DNA of 64,000 nt from Erysipelotrichaceae bacterium (GTDB lineage: Bacteria > Bacillota_I > Bacilli_A > Erysipelotrichales > Erysipelotrichaceae). The stretch covers positions 168,212 to 232,211 of the forward strand of contig JAFRBQ010000008.1 in NCBI GenBank assembly GCA_017404785.1, in the 5' to 3' direction. A program made the translations under genes and the position numbers. The notes below the pieces were generated by a model. That model was not told the origin of the DNA, ran no database searches, and saw only the letters and a list, made by a program, of their open reading frames with translations. Below are positions 1,327-3,338 of the stretch, in pieces. How positions within the stretch are numbered: the stretch's first letter is position 1; the number at the start of each line of letters is the position of its first letter.

Positions 1327-2655
1327 ATGTTGAAACTATTCGCTATATTACTTTGCAAGCTGATCAGAATGATCGGCAATCTTGTAGGCAGAGGTTCAAG
1401 CCTGCCGGGACAATTCGCTCTCAAGGTCTGTCCGGATATCTTGAGCAGGATCAGACTTCCTGAAGATATCATTGCAATCACCGGGTCCAATGGCAAGACT
1501 TCGACGACCGAGATGGTCTACTCACTTTTAGAAAAGCAGGGCAAGAAAGTAGCCTATAACTTTGAAGGCTCAAATCAGATCGAAGGCATCACGACGCTCA
1601 TCATCGATAACTGCGACTTAAGAGGAAACTTCCTTAAGGATGTTCTGCTGATGGAAGTGGATGAAAGATATGCCAAGTATGTCTGCAAGTACATAACGCC
1701 AAAGTATTACATCATAAACAATCTTTACCGTGACCAGATGACCAGGAACGGCCATCCGGAATATGTTTTGAACGACATCAAGAAGTCTATCAATCCGGGT
1801 ACGACTCTTGTTTTGAACAGTGATGATCCGATCATCAGTTCTTTGTCAAAGCAGTTTTCCAATGATGTCATCTTCTTTGGCATAAATGATTCAAGTAAGG
1901 CCAAGAAGGAAAACGATGCCGTATATGATGACGGCTACTACTGTCCACTTTGTCATCACAAGATGATCTATGATTATCGGATGTTTGCCCATGTTGGATC
2001 ATACAGATGTTCAAACTGCGACTTCAGAAGAAACACACCATCATATGCAATCAGCAAACTTGACCTATCAGCTTCAACGATAACGATTAATGATAAATAT
2101 GATATAAAACTGGCGCTGAACACGATCTTCAATGCCTATAATGTCCTGGTCGCTTTTGCGATCGGTTCACTTATCGGTCTTGATGAAGAAAAATGCGCTG
2201 AATCTCTGGATGACTATCTGATCAGAAACGGCCGAGTCAGAAACTTCAAAGTAGGCGACAGACAGGGTACACTTCTGATCTCCAAACATGAGAACACGAT
2301 CTCATACAATACCAATCTTGAATATGTAGCCAACTATAATGGTGATGTTTCTCTGCTGCTGATAATCGACGACATCAGCCGCAAGTATTTCACTTCCGAT
2401 ACCTCATGGCTCTGGGATATCAGCTTTGAATACCTTAAGAACGACAATGTCAAAAAGATCGTTGTAGCGGGCAAGTATATCAATGATGTAGCGGTCAGGT
2501 TCACATATGCGGGTATCGATAAGGACAAGGTAAGATTATTCAAGGAAGCATCTGAAGCGATCAGATATATCGGTGAAAACAGCGAAGGCAGACTTTTTGC
2601 CCTGACCTGTTTCTCTGATGAAGGCAAGCTTTTAAAGGAGGTCGAAGTATTATGA
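1327..2655 (+). CDS. murT: MurT-like Mur ligase, lipid II amidation type (diverged)
   Basis: This is a Mur-ligase family protein of 442 residues. MurT, with GatD, normally amidates the alpha-carboxyl of D-Glu in lipid II. The ATP loop TGSNGKTST is at about residues 52-60, and the MurT-specific zinc ribbon has CPLC and CSNC near residues 206-231. The C-terminal DUF1727 region keeps the Asp in SDTSWLWD (about 358). The usual KNPxG motif reads KHENT and the ADGRD segment reads YFTSD, so the acceptor or ammonia side has changed. An upstream in-frame TTG/GTG-type start would add 17 residues, but ATG 1327 sits six bases after TATAAT and is preferred. The stop overlaps the next start as ATGA. The family call is firm; the exact reaction is uncertain because of the partner gene. 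Confidence 0.88.
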   Translation: MLKLFAILLCKLIRMIGNLVGRGSSLPGQFALKVCPDILSRIRLPEDIIAITGSNGKTSTTEMVYSLLEKQGKKVAYNFEGSNQIEGITTLIIDNCDLRGNFLKDVLLMEVDERYAKYVCKYITPKYYIINNLYRDQMTRNGHPEYVLNDIKKSINPGTTLVLNSDDPIISSLSKQFSNDVIFFGINDSSKAKKENDAVYDDGYYCPLCHHKMIYDYRMFAHVGSYRCSNCDFRRNTPSYAISKLDLSASTITINDKYDIKLALNTIFNAYNVLVAFAIGSLIGLDEEKCAESLDDYLIRNGRVRNFKVGDRQGTLLISKHENTISYNTNLEYVANYNGDVSLLLIIDDISRKYFTSDTSWLWDISFEYLKNDNVKKIVVAGKYINDVAVRFTYAGIDKDKVRLFKEASEAIRYIGENSEGRLFALTCFSDEGKLLKEVEVL

Positions 2656-3338
2656 GGATACTCCATCTTTATCCAAATCTCATGAACCTTTATGGTGACT
2701 ATGGAAATATAAAAGTTCTAAGATCGCATCTGAAGGATCTGGGAATCGAGACAAGTGTTGATACTGTTGAACTTGAAGATCGCTATAACGTCAACGAATA
2801 TGATCTTGTTTATATGGGACCGGGTACGGAAAGCAAGCAGTTATCAGCTTTGAATGATCTGCTGAAACACAGGGAAGAAATAAGAGAATATCTTGAACAC
2901 GACAAGGTGCTCCTTTTTACCGGCAACGCCATGGAACTGCTTGGAACAAGCATCGATGACAAGGAAGCTCTGGGCATCCTGGATTTCAAAACGACAATTA
3001 CGGAAAAGCGCTACACAGGCGATGTCATCATGAACAATGATGAACTGGGCAAAGTTGTTGGTTTCATAAACAAGTCTTCGCTGATCGAAGGCGGAGAAGG
3101 ATACAGACTGTTCACCTATGATTTCAAGGACAACAATCTGGTCGACAATGACTATGAAGGCTGGCGTTTCCATAACGGTTTTGGAACTCATATCAGCGGT
3201 CCTGTACTGGTCAAGAATCCCTGCTTCATGGATCTGATCATAAAACTTCTAAGCGGTGACAGATATAAGAAGATAAACTACCACTATGAAGATGAAGCCT
3301 ACAGAATAACGCTGGAAGAACTGGAGAAAAGGAAGTAG
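2652..3338 (+). CDS. gatD: GatD-like glutamine amidotransferase without the catalytic cysteine
   Basis: The product is a 228-residue class I glutamine amidotransferase-like protein coupled to murT by an ATGA overlap. The N terminus (LYPNLMNLYGDYGNI) and the C-terminal GTHISGPVLVKNP, with the catalytic-type His at 180, match GatD. The nucleophile elbow, normally CGGYQLLG, reads FTGNAMELLG at residues 89-98, so the Cys is gone. The only cysteine is C191, after the His motif. As read, the protein cannot hydrolyse glutamine by the usual thioester route. It may be a structural partner of MurT that lets it use free ammonia, or the pair may attach a different amine to D-Glu. The family assignment is strong and the altered chemistry is inferred. 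Confidence 0.85.
   Translation: MRILHLYPNLMNLYGDYGNIKVLRSHLKDLGIETSVDTVELEDRYNVNEYDLVYMGPGTESKQLSALNDLLKHREEIREYLEHDKVLLFTGNAMELLGTSIDDKEALGILDFKTTITEKRYTGDVIMNNDELGKVVGFINKSSLIEGGEGYRLFTYDFKDNNLVDNDYEGWRFHNGFGTHISGPVLVKNPCFMDLIIKLLSGDRYKKINYHYEDEAYRITLEELEKRK

Follow-up and report, generated by a model that had tools for sequence, protein, structure and literature searches.

The window, a stretch of 64,000 nucleotides from an Erysipelotrichaceae genome, carries a pair of overlapping genes flanked by metG and a PAP2 gene:

1327..2655, forward strand: murT-like ligase gene, of the variant we call type 1 (Pfam Mur_ligase_M and MurT_C above cut-off; PDB MurT chains, E 2e-59)
2652..3338, forward strand: gatD-like gene for a predicted glutaminase-dead GatD of 228 aa, with a 4-base overlap with the murT stop

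The murT start was taken as the ATG at 1327, which matches the start in its relatives; the listed open reading frame begins at a TTG at 1276. The MurT product scores 81 bits against MurT_C (cut-off 25), the domain of the MurT ligase family, and 61.1 against Mur_ligase_M (cut-off 24). The GatD product matches Pfam GATase_3 (E 9e-13) and the GatD chains of the PDB (E 2e-22). Structures were predicted for each protein as a monomer. The AlphaFold model of GatD (pLDDT 96) has S. aureus GatD, 6h5e_A, as its top PDB match (Z 28.5, rmsd 2.0 over 225 residues), and that of MurT (pLDDT 91.6) has the MurT of 9sqj (Z 38.2). Both the GatD fold and the gene overlap with murT are thus present and, judged by its folds, the order of its genes and the residues of its ligase, the window pair is a MurT/GatD relative. 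Even so, the scores lie far from the NCBIfam equivalog cut-offs, at 97.6 versus 400 for GatD and 223.8 versus 800 for MurT.

The departure from known GatDs lies in two motifs:

2919..2945, forward strand: TGNAMELLG (residues 90-98), where canonical GatDs read [IV]CGGYQLLG; Gly91 stands at the position of the nucleophile Cys
3183..3203, forward strand: GTHISGP (residues 178-184), where canonical GatDs read GTYLHGP; Ser182 stands at the position of the catalytic His

The initial annotation had claimed that the catalytic Cys is missing, and the alignment of CGGFQLLG from the solved GatDs with GNAMELLG bears this out, since it places Gly91 at the elbow, the position of C94 in S. aureus. In the GatD model residue 90 closes a strand and residue 91 opens a helix, the arrangement expected of a nucleophile elbow. 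The sole Cys, C191, had been judged to be in the wrong place for a nucleophile, and indeed its column is not conserved among the relatives described below. The same annotation was mistaken in reading the His motif as intact. The catalytic residue of GatD is the His of Y-L-H-G-P, which is H189 of the S. aureus protein (PMC6113224). GTHISGP has Ser182 in this column, and His180 stands at the canonical Tyr position. The third proposed S. aureus triad residue (MurT D349; D355 in S. pneumoniae) is kept as D375 in the window MurT, a position at which relatives may have E, N or another residue. Because the two defining residues are absent and the equivalog cut-offs are missed by far, the pair is, by its predicted defining chemistry, not a glutamine-hydrolysing isoglutaminyl synthase. 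A sequencing error or gene fragment is ruled out as the cause, since the open reading frame is intact and relatives are in the identical state.

The glutamine-capturing Arg (R120 column) and D16 are retained in the window GatD, which would suit a protein that still frees ammonia from glutamine through another hydrolytic site or nucleophile. However, no conserved Cys occurs elsewhere in GatD, the catalytic His is gone, the oxyanion GGG has become GPG/GSx in the GatDs of this kind, and S. aureus GatD C94G is unable to use glutamine (PMC3266927). We therefore regard a surviving glutaminase activity as very improbable.

The loss extends across a large clade. We compared 175 MurT-adjacent GatDs, drawn from a 146-genome sample of the family, from the best 80 of 464 confirmed relatives in a public-genome scan, and from loci in the wider class. 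Forty-five have both Cys and His, 130 have Gly and a residue other than His, and none is mixed; among the scan loci, all 80 of those best 80 of 464 lack both residues. The 130 share the motif T-G-N-[AS]-x-[ED], after which we call them TGN, with T90 in 125/130 and N92 in 119/130. At the catalytic His column they carry I, T, L, S, V, N or M, never His. Judged from these alignments, joint loss of Cys and His in 130/130 is more than chance would be expected to give. Decay of a single gene is likewise ruled out, since the new motif is conserved although the 130 proteins are only 24 to 63% identical overall to the window GatD.

TGN GatDs are found in Erysipelotrichaceae, in another Bacilli family and in Oscillospirales; Massiliimalia massiliensis and Pseudoflavonifractor phocaeensis are examples of cultured carriers. 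The MurT_C scores of the 146 family genomes have a bimodal distribution: wherever the score is high and the GatD partner readable, Cys and His are kept in all, and wherever it is low, both are lost in all. In a MurT tree, one branch (SH-aLRT 97) parts the canonical from the TGN pairs. Type 2 pairs come out together with support. The window pair, of type 1, branches with those of Oscillospirales, a position suggestive of horizontal transfer. By MurT_C score class, the canonical and TGN kinds never occur in the same genome (0/93 family genomes with MurT), and a search for a canonical copy in eight TGN genomes from the public-genome scan found none. Such mutual exclusion is expected if both kinds use the same acceptor. 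A canonical pair elsewhere in the source genome was also sought and not found in its assembly, which is 76% complete and whose other MurT, on contig 3, is again of the TGN type. TGN genomes hold one to three such pairs. The second pair of the source genome, on contig 3, is of type 2; its GatD reads LFTGNAMEILG and ATYLLGP and is without the catalytic His. The window pair thus belongs to a large and widespread glutaminase-dead branch of MurT/GatD that is apparently undescribed, as we found no description of a TGN clade in the portions of the open-access literature available to us.

Several other departures from the canonical pair came to light. In a different family (L203 4956-7133, G180), a third GatD variant has Glu for Cys (LAIEQGYKYLG) and Arg for His (GTQLRGP); in the tree it falls with the canonical kind. 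At L056 4488-5225 (G065), gatD precedes murT, and the sequence LVCGNGLDIFG of its product places a Cys one residue ahead of the usual nucleophile position. At L060 6183-7532 (G009), a canonical-type MurT has no adjoining GatD gene. Finally, 53 of the 146 sampled family genomes have no MurT_C protein, and MurT/GatD seems dispensable in many Erysipelotrichaceae.

MurT has kept its ligase site and changed on the side that faces GatD:

1717..1761, forward strand: GatD-facing MurT loop NNLYRDQMTRNGHPE; canonical ..FRDQ(M/L)DRFGE, with D139 replaced by T and E143 by H (S. pneumoniae numbering)
1942..2019, forward strand: intact Cys4 zinc ribbon of MurT (C223, C226, C245, C248)
2284..2295, forward strand: MurT K-N-P loop with a two-residue insertion (K-HE-N); E339 in 98% of type 1, a gap in canonical MurTs
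2377..2409, forward strand: MurT SRKYFTSDTSW, a type 1 insertion directly before D375/W380; Y371 in 100%, S368 in 98%, R369 in 87%

The MurT residues tied to ATP, metal and acceptor by mutation or structure are known from S. pneumoniae (PMC6085368). In the window MurT the P-loop Lys, the acceptor Asn, the Mg-binding E/D/E and the hinge Arg are all present (K74, N100, E127, D129, E130 and R320 in ORF numbering), and K59, N85, E110, D112, E113 and R304, together with the zinc-binding Cys residues, are kept in essentially all TGN MurTs. The 135-143 loop, whose role is described in PMC6085368, changes from FRDQ[ML]DRFGE to YRDQ[ML]TRNGHPE in type 1. D355/W360 of S. pneumoniae MurT face or touch GatD (PMC6085368), and Y344 is a further conserved type 1 residue. 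On the other partner, the conserved new residues of TGN GatDs are E60, T90, G91, N92, E95, N175 and Y217. These new conserved residues on the facing sides of both partners suggest selection for a rebuilt site; since they are conserved on both proteins where these face each other, the site would have been rebuilt rather than left to decay.

The initial annotation had offered two outcomes for a GatD without its Cys, free ammonia or another amine. That choice was the right one, and both options stand. The pair could be an ammonia-dependent isoglutaminyl synthase, in which MurT uses free cytoplasmic ammonia and GatD is only a structural subunit. Carbamoyl phosphate synthetase I sets the precedent, as it uses ammonia and retains a dead glutaminase domain. 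S. aureus GatD C94G, which bears the same change, does not use glutamine and yet keeps ammonia-dependent amidation at pH 8.5 in vitro (PMC3266927), and GatD is required even when ammonia is free (PMC6085368). The MurT ligase site is intact, and most TGN carriers are gut and rumen bacteria, from ammonia-rich habitats. On the other hand, S. aureus GatD/MurT used neither ammonia nor NH4Cl at neutral pH (PMC3266927), and Cys and His persist in many canonical members within that same family of bacteria. One to three TGN pairs per genome are hard to explain if all catalyze one ammonia reaction, and the insertions at the interface, as well as the genomic associations described next, are also left unexplained. 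We consider the use of free ammonia a strong rival of the explanation preferred below, if somewhat less probable.

A genomic companion of the TGN pairs is an ATP-grasp protein of family PF14397 (ATPgrasp_ST), which is named for sugar-transfer loci. In raw counts, which ignore kinship and draw on many incomplete MAGs, PF14397 is above cut-off in 0/57 canonical, 27/36 TGN and 13/53 MurT-less genomes of the 146-genome family sample (by genus, 0/30 canonical versus 11/16 TGN, p 3e-7). It is also present in 28/36 TGN genomes reached through the scan. Its gene adjoins TGN pairs in both Erysipelotrichaceae and Oscillospirales and in several arrangements. In the source genome the gene lies divergently 47 bp from the second TGN pair; elsewhere it is flanked by two TGN pairs, type 2 and type 1 (L113 1305-6729), lies directly 3' of gatD (L120, L125, L128), or is divergent from the pair (L045, L075, L080/L035). 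FemAB, which builds type A bridges, occurs in 50/57 canonical, 16/36 TGN and 0/4 Erysipelothrix genomes by the same raw, kinship-blind count. The motif by which MurE recognizes the third residue, counted in this way, ends in PR in 23/24 canonical, 19/30 TGN and 0/4 Erysipelothrix genomes, and is unusual in 1/24, 11/30 and 4/4, respectively. A single third-residue type shared by the TGN genomes is ruled out, since their MurE motifs range from DNPR to DDPS, SDSR and EDDH; some Oscillospirales with a Cys-less pair carry the DNPR-type (meso-DAP) MurE. The source genome has two MurE-like genes, on contigs 11 and 18 (410 and 231 bits), the better of which reads DDPS, and two lie close together in each of G023 and G122. 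No assayed member of PF14397 was found in the literature.

This genomic company bears on whether D-Glu is the acceptor at all. The pair might act on a different carboxyl, for example that of a teichoic or capsular precursor or of another lipid II residue. The naming of PF14397 for sugar-transfer loci points that way, as do the distance from the equivalog cut-offs and the MurJ/polysaccharide flippase-like and GtrA-like genes near the second pair of the source genome. (That pair, in L003 6463-12575 on contig 3, lies between the flippase-like gene, the ATPgrasp_ST gene and an Amidase_6 protein.) Against this stand the unchanged acceptor- and metal-holding residues of MurT, the mutual exclusion of TGN and canonical pairs, and the occurrence of a murC-like Mur ligase gene close to five loci of type 1. 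A different acceptor is therefore improbable, if less so than a surviving glutaminase.

The explanation we tentatively prefer, at somewhat under an even chance, is that the pair is a ligase that adds an amine not derived from glutamine, likelier an amino acid, to D-Glu, and that the PF14397 ligase could lengthen the resulting branch. An amino acid is favored because of the PF14397 association, the several pairs per genome, the loss of FemAB and the rebuilt interface. Starting from the loss of the glutaminase residues, the clade-wide conservation, the intact ligase site and the association with the ATP-grasp gene, we infer the acceptor, the attached amine and the sequence of steps as follows. 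GatD would be a catalytically dead yet conserved subunit of a MurT/GatD-type ligase. To judge from its intact residues, MurT would still activate the D-Glu α-carboxyl of the lipid-linked peptidoglycan precursor with ATP, presumably making an acyl phosphate there as canonical MurT does. With both Cys and His lost, the amine should not be ammonia from GatD-cut glutamine; the likeliest alternative is an amino acid, which would bind where MurT and GatD meet at the rebuilt interface and be joined to D-Glu as a position 2 branch. The PF14397 ATP-grasp ligase may then extend this branch from its free carboxyl into a type-B-like bridge or a side branch. To lengthen a D-Glu branch at a carboxyl, carboxyl-activating ligases are required, whether Mur-type or RimK-like ATP-grasp, and not amine-acylating Fem transferases. 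Gly or D-Ser on the D-Glu α-carboxyl is known from some Gram-positives (PMC11555704). Against the amino-acid reading, S. aureus GatD/MurT accepted glutamine, or ammonia at pH 8.5, and no other nitrogen donors (PMC3266927). Some TGN genomes also count against it, as they have FemAB, have ordinary MurE motifs or lack PF14397, and PF14397 could instead reflect capsule or teichoic acid chemistry. Our literature search returned no wall analysis or enzyme assay of any TGN member, and no position 2 data for Oscillospirales peptidoglycan.

The initial annotation had already proposed amino-acid addition and tied it to the type B wall of Erysipelothrix. The proposal is still plausible; the direct tie fails. 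The E. rhusiopathiae wall is listed as B1delta, D-Glu-Gly-L-Lys (PMC4062643). Holdemania filiformis is also listed as B1delta. We recognized Erysipelothrix genomes by the rumA carried on E. rhusiopathiae phage phi1605 (96% in G130); none of five had a MurT_C protein, and no GatD was found in Erysipelothrix either. This organism of proven type B wall thus makes that wall with neither protein, which weighs against the amino-acid reading, and the Cys-less pair is also common in Oscillospirales. However, the four near-complete Erysipelothrix genomes with the rumA match each have two strong PF14397 hits (4/4), and a modified form of the link gains support, as TGN genomes share PF14397, frequent absence of FemAB and unusual MurE with type-B Erysipelothrix. 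In one Erysipelothrix genome (L212 4670-14226, G130) the two ATPgrasp_ST genes are about 5 kb apart, one of them near a glutamate racemase (murI)-like gene. In its boldest form, TGN MurT/GatD and ATPgrasp_ST would constitute an unrecognized pathway for position 2 branches or bridges in Oscillospirales and Erysipelotrichaceae, and two ATPgrasp_ST enzymes alone would build the Gly-Lys bridge of Erysipelothrix; this extension is rather unlikely.

These findings may matter in several ways. First, descriptions of MurT/GatD present it as driven by glutamine and as a target for drugs, whereas the glutaminase chemistry is lost throughout this clade, which is common in gut Clostridia. Second, the D-Glu substituent influences transpeptidation and host sensing of wall fragments. 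Finally, no enzyme named as attaching amino acids to the D-Glu α-carboxyl in type B walls was found in the open-access literature, and TGN MurT/GatD and ATPgrasp_ST are concrete candidates for that step.

It is useful to contrast the window pair with known systems. With the lipid II isoglutaminyl synthase MurT/GatD of S. aureus, S. pneumoniae and S. pyogenes it shares overlapping genes, both folds, the full MurT site and the zinc ribbon, whereas its GatD lacks the Cys, the His and the oxyanion Gly and has the new TGN motif, and its MurT loops are rebuilt. As in carbamoyl phosphate synthetase I and S. aureus GatD C94G, a glutaminase partner is retained that would not hydrolyze glutamine; unlike in those dead-glutaminase amidotransferases, a new motif under strong conservation occupies the former site, matched by insertions in the ligase. 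The window MurT resembles MurC-F and the pseudomurein ligases pMurC and pMurE in fold and in its predicted ATP-dependent activation of a carboxyl, but, like other MurTs, it has no full N-terminal domain, and it retains a GatD-like subunit. RimK-like/ATPgrasp_ST proteins, predicted carboxylate-amine ligases, are encoded by a partner gene outside the pair and could extend the branch at its free carboxyl.
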